Below are positions 48,157 through 62,894 of a stretch of 64,000 nt of DNA, in pieces; position 1 is the first letter of the stretch, and every line of letters begins with the position of its first letter. The DNA lies in NCBI RefSeq assembly GCF_009663685.2, contig NZ_RCOG02000027.1:328240-392239 (forward strand), written 5' to 3'. The translations under genes and the position numbers were made by a program. Under the pieces are notes generated by a model. That model was given only the letters and a program-made list of their open reading frames with translations, had not been told where the DNA came from and did not search any database. The DNA comes from Cupriavidus sp. U2. GTDB lineage: Bacteria; Pseudomonadota; Gammaproteobacteria; Burkholderiales; Burkholderiaceae.

Positions 48157-48354
48157 AAAAAAAAGAAGCCCACGCGCGGGGTGCTCGTAGGCTTTCAGGA
48201 CTGCTATGAAGGGACCGGCTGTACCCGGTCCCGAACCGCGAATATAAACCTGCTTACATGAGGTGTAAATCGCGTTTCTATCAGGGATTCCCCTGATGGC
48301 GGGTGTAACGAGTGCGTCACTCGCATGCCAAAAGTGATGCAAGAAGACACTTTT
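48157..48354 (-). ncRNA. Candidate structured small RNA or leader with intrinsic terminator
   Basis: On the reverse strand, four perfect hairpin repeats follow one another: AAAAGTG/CACTTTT (48354-48330), CGAGTG/CACTCG (48323-48309), ATCAGGG/CCCTGAT (48297-48280) and GGGACCGG/CCGGTCCC (48232-48211). A terminator stem (GCCTACG with CGTGGGC, 48192-48168) and TTCTTTTTTTT (48167-48157) end the array. No gene is seen upstream on this strand, so this is either a free small RNA or an attenuated leader 260 bp ahead of the chemoreceptor gene. The promoter was not identified. Confidence 0.45.
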
Positions 48355-49404: not shown

Positions 49405-50661
49405 ATGGCGCAAGTCATTAATACCAACTCGTTGTCTCTGATGACGCAGAACAACCTGAACGCATCGCAGTCGTCGCTGAACACGGCGATCCAGCGCCTG
49501 TCGTCGGGTCTGCGTATCAACAGCGCAAAGGACGATGCAGCCGGCCAGGCCATCGCCAACCGTTTCACCGCCAACATCCGCGGCCTGACGCAAGCTCAGC
49601 GCAACGCCAACGACGGCATCTCGCTGGCGCAAACGACGGAAGGCGCGCTGACGGAAGTCAACAACAACCTGCAACGTATCCGTGAACTGTCGGTCCAAGC
49701 CGCCAACGGCTCGAACTCGTCGTCCGACCTGAAGTCGATCCAGGACGAAATCACCCAGCGTCTGTCGGAAATCGACCGTACCTCGGCTCAGACCGACTTC
49801 AACGGCGTGAAGGTGCTGTCGTCGGCTGCCAAGCCGCTGACGATCCAGGTTGGCGCCAACGACACCGAGACGATCTCGATCAACCTGTCGGAAATCAGCT
49901 CGAAGACGCTGGGTCTGCAAACGTTCAGCGTGTCGGGCCCGCAAGCTACGGGTAGCTTCTCCTTCGACGGCACCGCGGCTTCGGCCGCCAGCGAAAAGCC
50001 GACCGCCGCTCAACTGCAAAACCTCTACGGTTCGACCACCGCCGTCACGCAGACGACGGTTGGCGAAAAAGTCACCGACGCCCTGTCGACCAAGCTGGGC
50101 CTGGCCGCCGGTGGCGCCGTGCTGACCGGCAATGCCGTGGCAGACAAGAACGGCACGCTGTTTGCGGAAGTCGCCATCAAGACGCAGTCGGCTGGCGAAG
50201 CTTCCTCGCTGCAGAATCAGGGCTTCAGCGACGCCGCCTGGAACACCGGAACTAGCACCGGCAACACGGTCTATCGTTACGTTGCTCTGGACCCGCAGTC
50301 CGCCGACACGACCACGGCCGCTACGACGGCTGCCTTCACGGTTGACACCTCGAAGATCTCGGTTTCCGACCTGCAAAAGGGTACGACTGCCAGCCCGCTG
50401 GCCGCTATCGACGCAGCCCTGAAGAAGGTTGACGACCTGCGCAGCTCGCTCGGCGCCGTGCAGAACCGTTTTGACTCGGTGATCGCCAACCTGGGCACGA
50501 CCGTGACGAACCTGTCGTCGTCGCGTTCGCGCATCCAGGACGCAGACTACGCAACGGAAGTGTCGAACATGACCCGCGCGAACATTCTGCAACAAGCTGG
50601 TACGTCGGTTCTGGCCCAGGCCAACCAGACCACGCAAGGCGTGCTGTCGCTGCTGCGTTAA
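49405..50661 (+). CDS. fliC: Flagellin
   Basis: This is a 418-residue flagellin. The conserved N-terminus is MAQVINTNSLSLMTQNNLN, with RLSSGLRINSAKDDAAGQAI, and the C-terminus is RIQDADYATEVSNMTRANILQQAG...TQGVLSLLR; both build the D0/D1 core. The central part is short and rich in Thr/Ser/Ala (TTTAATTAAFTVD), which is where O-linked sugars could attach. AGGAG precedes the ATG. Codon use is strongly biased, as expected for a highly expressed gene. The downstream glycosyltransferase island may act on it. Confidence 0.98.
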   Translation: MAQVINTNSLSLMTQNNLNASQSSLNTAIQRLSSGLRINSAKDDAAGQAIANRFTANIRGLTQAQRNANDGISLAQTTEGALTEVNNNLQRIRELSVQAANGSNSSSDLKSIQDEITQRLSEIDRTSAQTDFNGVKVLSSAAKPLTIQVGANDTETISINLSEISSKTLGLQTFSVSGPQATGSFSFDGTAASAASEKPTAAQLQNLYGSTTAVTQTTVGEKVTDALSTKLGLAAGGAVLTGNAVADKNGTLFAEVAIKTQSAGEASSLQNQGFSDAAWNTGTSTGNTVYRYVALDPQSADTTTAATTAAFTVDTSKISVSDLQKGTTASPLAAIDAALKKVDDLRSSLGAVQNRFDSVIANLGTTVTNLSSSRSRIQDADYATEVSNMTRANILQQAGTSVLAQANQTTQGVLSLLR

Positions 50662-55382: not shown

Positions 55383-57623
55383 ATGAAAGTACAAGCCAGC
55401 CGTCAGTCGCACCAGGCAAAGCAAACTGAGCAGCTGCTCCGCGATGCATGGCAATGTTTTCACGAAGCACGCTTTGAAGAAGCCGACAGATACGCGACGG
55501 CGGCACAGAAGCAGAACAGGAAAAACCCTGTCGCGTACTTCATCCGCGCCACGGCCGCCCTGCATCAACACCGGTTTTCGGACGCAGAGGCGTTGCTACG
55601 GGAGGGACTGGGGTACTTTCCGGAGCATGAGCTTCTGAGTGAACAACTTGGCGTCACTCTGATCAAGACTGGAAGATATCCGGAAGCAGAATCGATACTA
55701 TCCCGTTGCGTCGCCAGCAGCTCGCCATCTGGTACCGCATGGATTAACTATACGAACGTCCAATTTCAGCTATCGAACTATGCTGCCGCCAAACATGCGG
55801 CGCAACGCGCACTCGCCATCTTTCCCGACGATGCACAGGTGCTTAGCAATTACGGATCCACGCTGCTGCATACCGGCCTTGCGCGCGAAGCTATTGAACA
55901 GTTCCGGAAGGCTTGCAAGCTTTCGCCGGCAGATCATGCCGCTCGATCAAACCTGCTCTACGCACTATTGTTCGATGACGAATTGAGTGCCGTCGACATT
56001 CGCCAGGAAGCGGAAGAGGCGGGCCGGCACTTCGTACGCTATCCGACCGCGTCAACGCAGCCAGCAAAGCAGCGATCAACCGTTAGGCTACGACTAGGCA
56101 TACTGTCCGCCGACTTCAATCGGCACGCCTGCGCCTACTTCCTGATTCCACTCCTGGCCAATATCGATCATCGAAAATTTGATGTTCATCTTTTCTCGAT
56201 TGGCCGGGAGAAGGATCGGATCACTGAAAAGCTTGGACACTATGCGGACATGTTCCATGATCTTTCCGGGCTGTCGGCTCAGCAGGTCGTGGAACACATT
56301 CAAACCGTCGACACGGATGTTTTGATCGATCTCGGCGGCCATACCCGCCTGTCGCCGCTCAGGTACATGGCCAGTCAGCTTGCGCCCTCGCAGGTGACGT
56401 GGCTCGGCTATCCGGGAACCACAGGCGTTGACGAAGTCCAGTACCGCATCAGCGACTGGACCGCCGACCCGGAAGGCGCAGACGACGCCTACACCGAAAC
56501 CCTGCTGCGAGCGCCTGAAGTCTTCTGTACGTACCATCCATTGGTGAGCGCCCCGCTGGACATCTACGCAGACCGCTATCGCGTTCGGCCCACGCCCGCG
56601 TTGGGCAGTGGCTTCATTACCTTCGGCTCTTGCAACACCATCTCCAAGCTGACGAGCCAGACCCTGCAGCTCTGGAGCGCCGTCCTTGCCAATTGCTCGA
56701 GTAGCCGGCTGCTCGTGGAAGCACACGGTCTCGACAACGAATCTGTCAAGCAGACCCTGCTGGAACGGCTGGCACTGGCAGGAATCGATACAGATCGAGT
56801 GGATCTGGTCACGCGCGACAGTCGCAACCAGTATCTGACTTACCATCGGATCGATGTGGCCCTGGACACCACTCCGATGACTGGCGGCACCACAACTTGT
56901 GATGCACTTTGGATGGGGGTTCCCGTTATCACACGCGAAGGTGCCGCATTCCACCGTCGAATTTCCGCGACCATCTTGCGTGCCGTCGGGCTGCAGGCGC
57001 TGGTCTGCGCATCCGATCAAGAGTATGTCGAACGGGCTGTTCAACTGGCCAGCGATATCGGTTTCCTGAATGACCTTCGACTGTCATTGCGCCAACGGTT
57101 CGAGAAGGCGCCGATCTCGGATGCGGCAGGGTTCAGCCGATGGTTCGAGCACACGATCGCGGGATTGGTCGACTGCGGAGAAGCCTCGCAGCCGGAGGTT
57201 CCACACGACGAGCGTCCAATCTTCTTTGGCGGCGAACTCCACCAACTGGGAGACATCATCGCGGCCGTTGGCGCCCTGCTGGCGAAACACGAGCATCCCC
57301 AACTGCTCAGCCTGCTCGAAAACGTGACAAGCGTCTGGCACCGACACTGGCTGGTTGCCTATGCGATGGCGGAGGTGCATCACGAGAAGGGCGAATGGGA
57401 CGAGTCCCTGGCGCTGCTGATCGAAGCAATCGGACTGCGCAGCTATTCACTGCCGCTCTATCGTCTGCTTAGCGCGCGCATGGATGCGTACCAGATCGAC
57501 AAGTCCGCACTGAAGGAACTCCTGGCCAACTCGTTTGGGATCGAGCTTTCGCATCTCGACCAAAGCCCGGTGCCAACGCCCTTCGACATTCTTGGTTTGA
57601 CCCTTGAGCCAGCACGCACATGA
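55383..57623 (+). CDS. SPINDLY/OGT-type TPR protein glycosyltransferase
   Basis: The 746-residue protein begins with about five TPR repeats (residues 15-190; [39 protein letters not shown]). The GT41 catalytic region (about 225-600) follows: [21 protein letters not shown] with the conserved His, [63 protein letters not shown], and [28 protein letters not shown]-terminal domain of some 130 residues follows. GT41 enzymes add GlcNAc or fucose to Ser/Thr; the donor here is unknown. It is coupled by ATGA to ddhA-like. Codon use looks more AT-tolerant than the flagellar genes around it. It is about 4.7 kb from fliC, so flagellin is the likely acceptor. Confidence 0.9.
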
Positions 57624-58393
57624 AAGCCGTCATCCTTGCGGGCGGCCTTGGCACGCGTATCGCCGAGGAATCGCATCTGCGTCCCAAACCGATGATCGAG
57701 ATTGGCGGCAAGCCAATCCTCTGGCACATCATGAAGATGTACTCCGCACACGGCGTCAACGAGTTCATCGTTTGCCTGGGCTACAAGGGGTACATGATCA
57801 AGGAGTACTTCGCAAACTACTTCCTGCATACGTCGGACGTAACGTTTGACATGTCTACCAACGGCATGGAAGTGCATTGCCAGAAGGCCGAGCCTTGGCG
57901 GATAACACTCGTGGACACCGGCGAGGATTCCCAGACAGGTGGGCGTCTGCGCCGCGTGCGCCAATACCTGCCCCCCGGCGAGAGCTTCTGCTTCACCTAT
58001 GGCGATGGCGTGTCCGATATCGACATCAGCGGCGAGATTGCCTTCCACAAACGCCACGGACGCTGGGCCACGGTGGGTGCCGTGCAGCCGCCTGGCCGCT
58101 ATGGAGCACTGGAGCGCACGCGCGAAGGCATGGTGTCCGGCTTTACCGAAAAGCCCCGCGGTGACGGCGGATGGATCAACGGTGGGTTCTTCGTATTGCA
58201 GCCGGAGGTCATCGACTTGATCGCGGATGACAAAACGGCGTGGGAGCAGGCGCCAATGGGCGAGCTTGCCAAGCGTGGCCACCTGCTGGCCTTTGAACAC
58301 TCGGGATTCTGGCAACCGATGGATACCCTTCGCGAGAAGAACCTGCTAGAGGATCTGTGGCAATCGGGCAAAGCCCCCTGGAAACAGTGGTAA
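57620..58393 (+). CDS. rfbF: Glucose-1-phosphate cytidylyltransferase
   Basis: The 257-residue enzyme makes CDP-glucose from glucose-1-phosphate and CTP, the first step of CDP-3,6-dideoxyhexose synthesis (RfbF/DdhA). The signature [45 protein letters not shown] (in parts), YGDGVSDID for the metal Asp, and [18 protein letters not shown] are visible. Length is standard. It overlaps the glycosyltransferase stop by 4 bp and the next gene by 1 bp (TAATG). Confidence 0.96.
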
Positions 58394-59463
58394 TGGGAAT
58401 GCTGGAATGTTATCGAGGGAGTGACGTCTTCCTCACCGGGCACACGGGATTCAAGGGCGGCTGGCTGGCACTTTGGTTGGCACGGCTGGGGGCTCGCGTG
58501 ACCGGCTATTCGCTGCCTGCCGCGACAGATCCCTGTCTGTTCGACGTTGCCCAGATCGGCCAGACGCTGCACAACCAGCATTTCGCCGATATTCGCGATG
58601 CGTCCGCGCTCACGGCTGCCATGCAAGCGGCAAGGCCCAAATTCGTTTTTCATCTGGCAGCGCGGCCCCTCGTCCGGCAAAGCTACCAGACGCCCCTGGA
58701 CACCTGGTCCACCAACGTCATGGGTTGCGTGCATCTGCTGGAAGCCGTGCGAGTGTGCCCATCCGTTCGGGCGGTCGTGGTTGTCACCACCGACAAGTGC
58801 TACGACAACCACGAATGGGTCTGGGGGTATCGCGAAACAGACCCCCTCGGCGGGCACGATCCCTACAGCGCGAGCAAGGCAGGAGCAGAACTCGTCGTCT
58901 CCAGCTATCGCAAGTCGTTCCTCGCGGCATCGGACCAGCGTATCGCCAGTGCCCGGGCAGGCAATGTGATAGGCGGTGGTGACTGGTCGGAAGACAGGCT
59001 GATTCCCGATGCAGTTCGGGCGATCACCGCGCGTCACACGCTCCGCATACGCAACCCCGGCGCTACCCGTCCATGGCAGCACGTTCTGGAATCACTGAAC
59101 GGCTATCTGCTGCTTGGTGCACGACTTGTCGGCGAGGATGGCGCCCGATTCGCGGATGCGTTCAACTTCGGGCCGAGCGCGGCGGACAATCGCACGGTGA
59201 GTGACGTCTTGCAAGGTCTCAAGATGAACCTGCCGGGCCTGAGCTGGGAATTGGATGGCACCTCGAGCACCAGTCAGCCTCACGAAGCGGCCTTCTTGTA
59301 CCTCGACTCATCCAAATCTACCCGGTCGCTGGGCTGGAAGCCGCGATGGGACCTGGATCGCGCGCTAGCGGAAACGGCCAGATGGTATGGCTCCGTGCAA
59401 GACAAGCCTGCCACGGCACGCGCACTCTGCGAATCCCAGATCGAGGAATTCAGCGCCATATAA
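58393..59463 (+). CDS. rfbG: CDP-glucose 4,6-dehydratase
   Basis: This 356-residue extended SDR converts CDP-glucose to CDP-4-keto-6-deoxyglucose (RfbG/DdhB). The NAD loop is LTGHTGFKGGWLALWL; TTDKCYDN and DPYSASKAGAELVV hold the active site (YxxxK in YSASK), and GNVIGGGDWSEDRLIPD is the substrate loop. It is the last gene of the rightward glycosylation operon and is convergent with the acyltransferase gene. Confidence 0.95.
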   Translation: MGMLECYRGSDVFLTGHTGFKGGWLALWLARLGARVTGYSLPAATDPCLFDVAQIGQTLHNQHFADIRDASALTAAMQAARPKFVFHLAARPLVRQSYQTPLDTWSTNVMGCVHLLEAVRVCPSVRAVVVVTTDKCYDNHEWVWGYRETDPLGGHDPYSASKAGAELVVSSYRKSFLAASDQRIASARAGNVIGGGDWSEDRLIPDAVRAITARHTLRIRNPGATRPWQHVLESLNGYLLLGARLVGEDGARFADAFNFGPSAADNRTVSDVLQGLKMNLPGLSWELDGTSSTSQPHEAAFLYLDSSKSTRSLGWKPRWDLDRALAETARWYGSVQDKPATARALCESQIEEFSAI

Positions 59464-59477
59464 TTGGTGGACCTTCC

Positions 59478-59966
59478 CTACTCCCGATACTTGATGATCC
59501 GGGCGGGACTTCCCGCGATGACGGCGTAGTCCGGCCAATGGCCCTTGATAACCGTGCCTGCACCCACAACGGTTCCCATGCCAAGGCGCGTGCCATCAAG
59601 CAAGACGCAATTGGCACCAATCCAGCAGTCGTCGCCAATGTCGATGCCGCCGCGCGAAGGCATGAATCGCTGATCGATGATGGAGCGGGCCTTCTCACGG
59701 TACTCGTGGTTGGTAGGGGCCAGCGTGGTGTTGGCGGCGATCAAGACACCACGGCCTATCTTCACACCGTTTCCCGAGTAGATGACAACGCCGGAGTTCA
59801 GGTAGGCATGCGCTCCGATCTCGACATCGCCGCCCCCCCCCGCAAACTTAATCTTTACAAAGCTGTCCACGGTGACATGGTCGGCAACCCTGACCATGTT
59901 GCCGCGCACAGAGCTTTCAATGTCTGCCAGCGGCGAGACCTTCGCGAGCGCCGATATCTCGTTCAC
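59478..59966 (-). CDS. Hexapeptide-repeat sugar O-acyltransferase (Maa-like), with poly-G tract
   Basis: The 162-residue product is a left-handed beta-helix acyltransferase: VEIGAHAYLNSGVVIYSGNGVKIGRGVLIAANTTL, GGIDIGDDCWIGANCVLLDGTRLGMGTVVGAGTVI and YAVIAGSPARIIKYRE (in parts). The catalytic His lies in APTNHEY. Such enzymes acetylate sugar hydroxyls. It starts at a GTG overlapping the upstream SDR stop by 4 bp (GTGA). A run of nine G in its coding strand encodes part of FAGGGGD, about 43 codons in, so gain or loss of one G would switch off the product. Confidence 0.88.
   Translation of the reverse strand: MNEISALAKVSPLADIESSVRGNMVRVADHVTVDSFVKIKFAGGGGDVEIGAHAYLNSGVVIYSGNGVKIGRGVLIAANTTLAPTNHEYREKARSIIDQRFMPSRGGIDIGDDCWIGANCVLLDGTRLGMGTVVGAGTVIKGHWPDYAVIAGSPARIIKYRE
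59833..59841 (-). repeat. C9/G9 homopolymer tract inside the acyltransferase gene
   Basis: Nine consecutive C on the + strand (G on the coding strand). Slipped-strand mispairing at such tracts commonly makes ON/OFF expression of surface-glycan genes in other bacteria. The window carries the in-frame state. Confidence 0.85.
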
Positions 59967-60886
59967 CTGACAACTCCGCCAAGATGTTCCACCACGCACC
60001 GCAGGAACTTGGCCATGCGCGACGACATGACCGGCTCGTCCACTTCGGACGGCCAATGGTTTGAGAAGAATCGGTATGGCGTCTCAGTCGATCCAGTTCG
60101 TGCTTCCGCACCGACGCCACCGAGGCTCACATCAATCGTTCGGTCCAACGTTTGGCCCGCGACCTCCGCGCATAGTCTCGCGAGGTCCCCCATCCTCCAC
60201 GGCTGCCCTGACACGTGCGTCAGTTCCGGCAGTTGATCCTTGAGTGCTGCCCGGACCGCACCGGTTAATTGTTCGAGCGAAACGTAGCTGCGCACCGGCG
60301 ATCCATCGGACAGCAGTCGGATTGATCCATCGCGGACTGCTTGCCGCGCAAAATCGAATGGCGCAAGCGACCATCGAGCGAACGTGTGCCATGACGCCGG
60401 GACTCCATACAGATTGGTCAGTCGCAGCACCGTCGCGCGCATGCCGACTTGTCGCGCGTACATCCGTACCATCTGTTCAGCGGCGAGGTGCGTCATGCCG
60501 TAGTCGGTAGCCGGCACCGGCTGGCATTGTTCGTCGATCTCGCCGGCAGGCGATCCGTACACGTGAAACGTCGACAAGTAGACAACCCGGCCCACCCTGG
60601 CGTGGGAAAGCGCCGTCAGCAAGGCCCTCGTTGCCGTAACGTTTGCTGTCCACGCCGACACCGGATCCATGCGGCAGCCAACCTCATGGGCCGCCGCCGC
60701 GTGGATGCACGCATCAACCTGAGGCAGACGCAGCTCGGCAATGGCCTGCGGATTCAATAGATCGAGCCGAATGGCATCCTCCGGGCGGCGGCCTGCGGTC
60801 ATCACTTCGATGCCATCGGCCCGCAGCGTTTGCAGCACTGCAGCTCCCGCATAACCCGAAGCTCCGGTCAGGATCACGCGCGCCAT
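59963..60886 (-). CDS. NAD-dependent epimerase/dehydratase-family sugar reductase
   Basis: The 307-residue extended SDR begins MARVILTGASGYAGAAVLQ. STFHVYG carries the active-site Ser, and TDYGMTHLAAEQM has Tyr but His where the usual YxxxK lysine would be. By position next to DdhC and an epimerase it could be the C4 reductase that ends CDP-3,6-dideoxyhexose synthesis (abequose, paratose or ascarylose type), as RfbJ, RfbS or AscF do. The missing lysine makes activity uncertain. The ATG at 60886 follows the upstream stop by one base. Confidence 0.85.
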   Translation of the reverse strand: MARVILTGASGYAGAAVLQTLRADGIEVMTAGRRPEDAIRLDLLNPQAIAELRLPQVDACIHAAAAHEVGCRMDPVSAWTANVTATRALLTALSHARVGRVVYLSTFHVYGSPAGEIDEQCQPVPATDYGMTHLAAEQMVRMYARQVGMRATVLRLTNLYGVPASWHTFARWSLAPFDFARQAVRDGSIRLLSDGSPVRSYVSLEQLTGAVRAALKDQLPELTHVSGQPWRMGDLARLCAEVAGQTLDRTIDVSLGGVGAEARTGSTETPYRFFSNHWPSEVDEPVMSSRMAKFLRCVVEHLGGVVR

Positions 60887-60887
60887 A

Positions 60888-61454
60888 TCAGGCAATTCCA
60901 AAATCGGATCGTGGCAGGTAGTCGGCCATCGCAGGAAGCGCCTGGTCTCGCGCGGACATGATCGCAGTTGTCACACCTGGCCCATCCTCCCACCAGTCTA
61001 TGCCGACACTGTCTGCATGGATGCCTGCGTCCAGCGCCGGATCGTGCTCGGACGACACCAGGTACCACATGGCGGTACCGTCGCGATGGGCGGCAAAGCC
61101 ATGTGCGATGCCTCTCGGCAAGTACAGTACAGCGGGATCCTCGGCCCTGAGCATCACGCTGACACTGACGCCAAATGTCGGCGACCCGCGCCGCAAATCG
61201 GTGAAACCGTCGCGTGCGCAGCCACTGAGACAGCTTACGAGCTTGGCATGGTCCTTGGGAGGCCGCTGAAAATGCATCCCGCGGATGACCCCTGCATTCG
61301 ACGTCGAAACAAAGGACTCGGCAAACCGGGCTTCCAAGGCGTGTGACGCGAGTGTGGAGCCCTGGAACAGCTTGAGAAAATCACCTCTGGCATCTTCATG
61401 TCGATCGACTCTGAGCAGATAGCATCCGGAAATAGCCAGCGGCTGAAGAATCAT
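60888..61454 (-). CDS. RmlC-like sugar 3,5-epimerase
   Basis: The 188-residue cupin resembles dTDP-4-dehydrorhamnose 3,5-epimerase: GVIRGMHFQRPPKDHAKLVSCLSG with the catalytic His, DLRRGSPTFG, VLYLPRGIAHGFAAH and WYLVSSEHDP. In CDP-dideoxyhexose pathways the AscE-type member epimerises only C5, leading to CDP-L-ascarylose; that assignment is inferred from the neighbours. It starts two bases after the ddhC-like stop and is followed one base later by the reductase gene. Confidence 0.88.
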   Translation of the reverse strand: MILQPLAISGCYLLRVDRHEDARGDFLKLFQGSTLASHALEARFAESFVSTSNAGVIRGMHFQRPPKDHAKLVSCLSGCARDGFTDLRRGSPTFGVSVSVMLRAEDPAVLYLPRGIAHGFAAHRDGTAMWYLVSSEHDPALDAGIHADSVGIDWWEDGPGVTTAIMSARDQALPAMADYLPRSDFGIA

Positions 61455-61456
61455 GC

Positions 61457-62773
61457 TCAGAATCCGATTCCGAAGAACTGCTCCAGCTTTTCGCCGACAA
61501 AGTCGAGCATCGATTCGGACAACCCAGGGTAGATGCCAAGCCAGAACGTATCGTTCATGACGATGTCCGAATTGGTCAGGTCCCCGACCACCCGATAGTT
61601 GCGGCCCTGCATATAGGGCTGTCGAGTCAGATTGCCGGCGAACAGCAGTCGGGTGCCGATCCGGAACTGGTCCAGATAAGTCACCAGGTCGGTACGGCGT
61701 ACGCCTGCCTCCGGCCGCAACGTGACCGGAAATCCAAACCACGACGGATCGGACCCGGGCGTGGCTTTCGGGAGAATCAGCGCCTCGCTGCATGCGGCAA
61801 GGCGTTCCTTGAGGAAGCCGAAATTGTGACGACGGGCAGCGATGAACCCTTCAGCCCGCTCAATCTGTGCCAGGCCGCAAGCGGCCTGCATATCGGTGAT
61901 CTTGAGGTTGTACCCGAGGTGTGAGTACGTGTACTTGTGGTCGTACCCTTCCGGCAATGCGCCGAGCTTCCAGCAGAATCGCCGGCCACAGGTATTGTCC
62001 TTGCCCGGTGGGCAATAGCAATCGCGTCCCCAGTCACGAAACGACTCGGCGATGACCTTGAGCGTGTCATTGTTGGTAAAGACTGCGCCCCCCTCTCCCA
62101 TCGTGATGTGGTGTGCGGGGTAGAAGCTCAACGTCGCAATATCGCCGAACGTGCCGACGAGCTGCCCACCATATGTCGCGCCAAGCGCATCGCAGCAATC
62201 CTCCACCAGCCACAGTCCATGCTTCCGACAGAGGGCGGTAACCACTTCAAGATTGAATGGGTTGCCCAGCGTATGCGCCAGCATGATCGCCTTGGTGCGC
62301 GGCGTAATGGCGGCCTCGATACGGCTGGCGTCAATATTGTAGGTGCCCATTTCCACATCCACGAAGACAGGCACCGCACCACATTGAATGATTGGATTCA
62401 CCGTCGTCGGGAATCCCGCCGCCACTCCGATCACTTCGTCACCGGGACGGATCGCGCGATAGCCCAGCCGGGGAGATGTCAGCGTCGCAAAGGCCACCAG
62501 ATTAGCCGACGACCCCGAATTGACCGTCAGCACATGACGCACGCCAAGCAACTTGCCCAGTCGCTGCTCGAAAGCGTCGTTGAAGCGGCCAGTGGTCAGC
62601 CACGCATCGAGCGATGCCTCAACCATCGACTTCATCTCGGCAGCACCCACGACCTTGCCCGACGGAGGGACTGGAGTCTGGCCCGGCTGGAATGCTGGCG
62701 TCTCGCTTTCGACAAGCGCGGCGTACTCATCGACGAGACCCGCAATCCGTGCGCGCAGTTGTTCCTTGCTCAT
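61457..62773 (-). CDS. rfbH: CDP-4-keto-6-deoxyglucose 3-dehydrase
   Basis: The 438-residue PLP and [2Fe-2S] enzyme (RfbH/DdhC, E1) removes the C3 oxygen on the way to 3,6-dideoxyhexoses. The hallmark [16 protein letters not shown] has His where aminotransferases have the PLP lysine. The iron-sulfur cysteines lie in [19 protein letters not shown]. The ATG at 62773 gives the family length; the frame is open to 62806. Its partner reductase (E3, DdhD/AscD) is not in this window. It begins the leftward four-gene set. Confidence 0.96.
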
Positions 62774-62894
62774 TCCCGATACTTTTGCTGTTTGCCCGTT
62801 CCACATCGGGCCAGGTCATCTCAGCTGAGGCCACCGATGTCACATGCCAAAGACCGACGCATGAGTTGCATTCGATCCGTCGAACCTACCCTTC

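Follow-up and report, generated by a model that had tools for sequence, protein, structure and literature searches.

The window, by which we mean the whole stretch of 64,000 nucleotides from Cupriavidus sp. U2 analyzed here, carries a nine-base G tract inside a predicted sugar acyltransferase gene, and the tract and the genes considered around it are as follows.

49405–50661, plus strand: flagellin gene (Pfam Flagellin_N 2.3e-42, Flagellin_C 1.3e-28)
55383–57623, plus strand: TPR and GT41 glycosyltransferase, a candidate flagellin glycosyltransferase (Pfam Glyco_transf_41 9.9e-35, TPRs)
57620–58393, plus strand: glucose-1-phosphate cytidylyltransferase, rfbF type (TIGR02623, 454.6 bits, cut-off 300.25)
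58357–59463, plus strand: CDP-glucose 4,6-dehydratase, rfbG type (TIGR02622, 486.2 bits, cut-off 278.45)
59478–59966, minus strand: hexapeptide (LbH) sugar acyltransferase, 162 codons, GTG start, last of its minus-strand group (open reading frame, PF00132)
59833–59841, minus strand: G9 homopolymer (C9 on the plus strand), codons 42–45 of the acyltransferase (sequence reading)
59963–60886, minus strand: NAD-dependent SDR/epimerase family, ATG at 60886 taken as start (Pfam Epimerase 3.7e-35)
60888–61454, minus strand: rmlC-like sugar epimerase, ATG at 61454 taken as start (TIGR01221, 120.6 bits, below its cut-off of 155.75)
61457–62806, minus strand: rfbH-type gene (NF011936 RfbH, 742.7 bits, cut-off 423)

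Read along the minus strand, the order is rfbH, rmlC-like, SDR and acyltransferase, with the acyltransferase at the end and its GTG start overlapping the TGA of the upstream SDR gene by 4 bases; the rfbG-type gene is convergent with it and may have its real start downstream of 58357. Because the rfbF, rfbG and rfbH types all exceed curated cut-offs, a CDP-3,6-dideoxyhexose pathway at the locus is well supported by these assignments, the three enzymes presumably filling the roles of that pathway and the rfbH-type gene encoding what we take to be a CDP-4-keto-6-deoxyglucose 3-dehydrase. The SDR and the rmlC-like epimerase passed no specific NCBIfam cut-off. With the flagellin and TPR-GT41 genes nearby, the glycan context that the sequence-only reading had proposed holds up. 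The same four-gene order is found again in two species of Cupriavidus (L035, L036), in four Achromobacter loci (L037, L038, L039, L041) and in a Sulfuritalea MAG (L040), and each of these Achromobacter loci has a flagellin match that starts at most 2 kb from the acyltransferase. This recurrence in Cupriavidus and Achromobacter suggests that several Burkholderiales decorate flagellin with a dideoxyhexose.

Evaluating the acyltransferase itself, we found hexapeptide repeats by Pfam Hexapep (PF00132; 60.1 bits against a cut-off of 27, 1.2e-16), which bears out the gene family named beforehand. The best PDB match, obtained with a profile of 23 sequences, was 3ect, a hexapeptide acetyltransferase (3.8e-21), spanning residues 47–159 and thus the part of the protein beyond the tract. 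Among the best 25 of the 39 NCBIfam models listed for this protein, none scored at or above its own cut-off, so that acetylation of the dideoxy sugar, as the sequence-only reading had it, stays a hypothesis. The WbbJ O-acetyltransferase model gave 78.8 bits where its cut-off is 243, which places the protein outside that equivalog. The predicted structure (mean pLDDT 73) has short strands, with residues 41–46 sitting between those predicted at 38–40 and 47–50, and a Foldseek search with this middling model returned no structural match at E < 0.001.

The tract occupies 59833–59841 as C9 on the plus strand, hence G9 on the coding strand, early in the coding region as the sequence-only reading had noted. 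It covers codons 42–45 (GCG GGG GGG GGC, followed by a further GGC), and these are the only two GGG codons of the gene. The run had been described as exactly in frame, which is right insofar as the frame is open, and the gene ON, at the assembled length of nine; the run itself is out of step with the codons, consisting of the last G of GCG, two GGG codons and the GG of GGC. Computed translation agreed with the proposed ON/OFF effect of a one-base slip on the gene, the product being truncated from 162 residues to 55 at G8 and 90 at G10 (89 at G7), and the frame stayed open at G6 and G12. Since the acyltransferase is the last gene of its group, a slip would probably abolish acylation alone. The tract is the sole G/C run of at least 7 bases in the window, where one further homopolymer of that length occurs (A8 at 48157).

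To place the tract in its family, we read the corresponding codons in 39 distinct genes from 41 loci (two being duplicates), apparently all from species other than the source, with the distant matches L057–L061 and the loci L033 and L034 (33–39% identity) excluded. No relative exceeded 6 Gs there, and hence none had 7 or more: the longest run was 6 in 4 of the 39, 5 in 3, 4 in 2 and 2–3 in the remaining 30. The nearest orthologues, from the same genus and with 78 and 80% protein identity, had 2 and 3 Gs; the loci of the same-genus genomes G011 and G419 fall within those of C. pauculus and C. basilensis. Conservation of the tract among relatives was thus rejected (0/39 with at least 7 Gs). What the relatives do share is the peptide, with Gly-Gly in 38 of 39 and Gly-Gly-x-Gly in 37 (exceptions L120 and L045), so that a nearly family-wide motif explains where the tract lies. 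Position x is occupied by D, S, T, L, A, M, Q, N, K or I among these proteins, and by G in L041; the genes from Cupriavidus and Achromobacter encode Asp there, save for this one Achromobacter gene, whose Gly comes with only G5. None of the 39 matches contains a stop and the tract position is free of gaps in the 23-sequence alignment, from which it follows that the gene is kept on. Its product is probably an active sugar acyltransferase. One member of the acyltransferase family, from another family of the order, carries a C8 on the plus strand (sense G8; L111:1659–1666) at a different Gly-Gly pair, and long G runs can therefore arise at adjacent glycines.

Searches for the gene gave the following counts, each including its own genome: 3 of 60 genomes of the genus at E 1e-35 (its own and the two at 78 and 80% identity), 4 of 60 relatives at 1e-15, 4 of 398 genomes of the family at 1e-40 and 13 of 399 of the order at 1e-35. 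Plasmid records gave 52 matches, all below 60% identity, of which 4 were read at the tract site, and phage records gave no match.

We then compared the tract with chance at several scales. Dinucleotide shuffles of the window gave a mean of 3.36 G8 matches against the 2 observed, which overlap and both come from the tract. When the G, A, F, K and D codons were shuffled within the gene, a G run of at least 9 appeared in 0.14% of trials. For a coding sample of 267 open reading frames selected on their composition (325 kb in all, from 464 kb of the same genome), synonymous-codon resampling predicted 0.56 sense-strand G runs of at least 9 per 325 kb. The sample, filtered at a third-position GC of 0.72, leans for that reason toward typical host-like genes, and the acyltransferase, at 0.698, lies outside it. 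In this sample 1 G run of at least 7 was observed against 8.1 expected, an avoidance of long G runs in the genes of this genome. Extrapolated to 6.45 Mb, with 88% assumed to be coding, free codon choice predicts about 10 runs of at least 9, and the sample's avoidance lowers this to about 1, a rough figure that rests on one observed run. With 0.14% within the gene and about 10 expected per genome, the G9 is unusual for a single gene and not for a genome, while the low within-gene probability and the avoidance of long G runs count against a chance reading.

Across the whole genome, 32 overlapping G8 matches resolved into 21 runs, 7 of them at least 9 long. Two of these 7 lie within recognizable genes, namely the acyltransferase and a frame-broken alcohol dehydrogenase; two others lie ahead of MFS transporter and further alcohol dehydrogenase domains, upstream of the likely starts; another falls 36 bases past the last sense codon of an open reading frame of coding-like composition; and the remaining two are spanned by open reading frames of at least 100 codons with no Pfam match. 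That a surface-glycan gene should hold one of the two in-gene runs fits phase variation and counts against chance. At 1.71 matches per Mb the genome ranks 22nd from the bottom among 60 of the genus for G9 density (median 2.05; sizes of the other 59 genomes rounded, and a few of them incomplete), 59 of the 60 having at least one match, and genome-wide enrichment for G9 was rejected accordingly.

Other runs were seen along the way. A zinc alcohol dehydrogenase changes frame at a G9 (L067:1535–1543; G000:C35:96834–96842) about 640 bases from a contig end; its first part matches Pfam ADH_N, and its second part has no Pfam match at 1e-5 and does match plasmid alcohol dehydrogenases by tblastn. Two homologues on Neorhizobium plasmids have no run at the G9 position, a search at E 1e-30 found only the genome's own copy (1/60 genomes), and the frame break could be an assembly error or a mutation. 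Two bactofilin genes that resemble each other and lie on separate contigs carry a sense C8 at the same place, 20 codons from the end (L080:1499–1506, L081:1555–1562), and in a PelD-type frame a sense C8 follows shortly after the PelD domain, close to where the frame ends (L077:1512–1519).

Weighing these results, we think it likely, and the simplest account, that the tract is an accidental G9 run on a glycine-rich motif in a functional gene rather than a dedicated on/off switch. The starting points are direct observations (the tract, its frame, the family motif and the absence of the run from relatives), and the steps that join them are our proposal. The family carries a near-conserved Gly-Gly-x-Gly turn, at which the variable x would have become Gly in this lineage, and two GGG codons before the final GG, beside the GCG alanine codon, would complete the G9, in whatever order these changes came. 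The acyltransferase perhaps acts on a CDP-dideoxyhexose made by the enzymes of the neighboring genes, and the TPR-GT41 enzyme would transfer the dideoxyhexose to a presumed flagellin target. Replication slippage at the G9 would probably yield off mutants at a low frequency, as it would at any run of this kind, and the site may be more mutable than ordinary DNA.

The main competing reading is a true contingency locus, in which reversible slippage at the G9 toggles acylation of the flagellar glycan in a subpopulation and selection keeps the tract. Bordetella, which belongs to the Burkholderiales, supplies the precedents. Gogol et al. screened Bordetella genomes for putatively phase-variable G/C tracts with a threshold of more than 8 bases, which the present tract passes, and describe such tracts as commoner than expected in these genomes (PMC1891110). 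In B. pertussis, as given there, cultures held mixtures of lengths for tracts of G9 and above; one locus appeared stable at G8 and unstable beyond it; bapC was mostly G11; and the main tcfA allele was G9 in 82 of the 90 strains, 75 of which had G8 as a minor allele (PMC1891110). For Burkholderia mallei after passage, repeat-length and one-base changes are listed (PMC1574311). The supposition that such tracts are less expected in Burkholderiales therefore does not survive, in view of the many Bordetella tracts (PMC1891110) and the repeat changes of B. mallei (PMC1574311). Since B. pertussis G9 tracts, from the same order, vary within cultures, slippage at the window G9 is plausible, and by this analogy it probably occurs at a raised rate.

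Of the phase-variation reading, then, the slippage part gains plausibility from the B. pertussis literature, and the part that made the tract a conserved, selected contingency locus finds no support, the run being broken in all 39 relatives of apparently other species, an outcome that the sequence-only reading had itself named as refuting. A contingency gene can be recognized by a G/C tract of more than about 8 bases in or upstream of it, by a product that slippage alters and by a length-variable tract in close relatives; here the G9 supplies the first, computed translation the second, and the third was found in 0 of 39 relatives, the nearest of which have 78–80% identity. Absence in other species is weak evidence, because contingency tracts can be lineage-specific. 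In favor of a contingency locus there remain the length of the tract, the tcfA precedent, the short frame-off products and the closeness of a glycan gene to flagellin, which recalls Campylobacter Cj1295 (PMC3068675); against it are the tract missing from 39 of 39 relatives, a genome not enriched for G9 and a single long G/C tract in the window, where C. jejuni NCTC 11168 is described as having ten in its flagellin glycosylation locus (PMC3068675). We consider a selected phase switch an unlikely possibility and give the contingency locus as set out a small share of belief; the narrower version, in which a recently grown G9 serves as a contingency switch for 3,6-dideoxyhexose acylation on flagellin in a Cupriavidus lineage, we consider slightly less probable again.

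Two further accounts fare worse. A wrong tract length through sequencing or assembly error would suit a draft of 37 contigs in which another G9 breaks the alcohol dehydrogenase frame near a contig end; a one- or two-base miscall would, however, disrupt a frame that is open at G9, matches the family motif and is gap-free against 23 aligned proteins, and we regard such an error as very unlikely. The idea that RNA polymerase or the ribosome slips at the G9, giving a fixed minor share of truncated protein as dose tuning, has the long G run inside the gene and nothing else in its favor, runs against the lack of conservation of the tract and is the least credible of these accounts. That the tract might be unstable through lost mismatch repair was unsupported, mutS and mutL both being present, with their models matched above threshold and no stop within the matches.

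Were the switch true, it would give an environmental Burkholderiales bacterium with on/off variation of its flagellar glycan, and tract variation in clones would point to flagellar-glycan phase variation in Cupriavidus, a topic that none of the Cupriavidus papers found in our literature search addresses, judged by title and opening lines of the abstract. The accidental run that we favor carries a caution of its own, in that a GC-rich genome is expected, by codon chance, to hold long G runs over conserved pairs of glycines at one place or another.

Set beside known systems, the acyltransferase resembles WbbJ/LacA-type hexapeptide O-acetyltransferases in its hexapeptide sequence and differs from WbbJ by its score (78.8 bits against the cut-off of 243). 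FlmG of Caulobacter combines TPRs with GT-B-like domains and is described as glycosylating flagellins with pseudaminic acid; the GT41 protein of the window likewise has TPRs ahead of its glycosyltransferase domain, whereas the genes around it are of the CDP-dideoxyhexose type (PMC7591256). Campylobacter jejuni Cj1295 offers a G tract in a gene that modifies the flagellin glycan, as the acyltransferase possibly does; that locus is described as having ten tracts and variation has been shown there, whereas the window has one tract and another sugar pathway (PMC3068675). The tract genes tcfA and bapC of B. pertussis have alleles that are reported to vary between and within strains (PMC1891110), whereas here there is one genome with relatives that lack the tract; they share with the acyltransferase the same order, a long G tract inside the gene and a slip that truncates the product.
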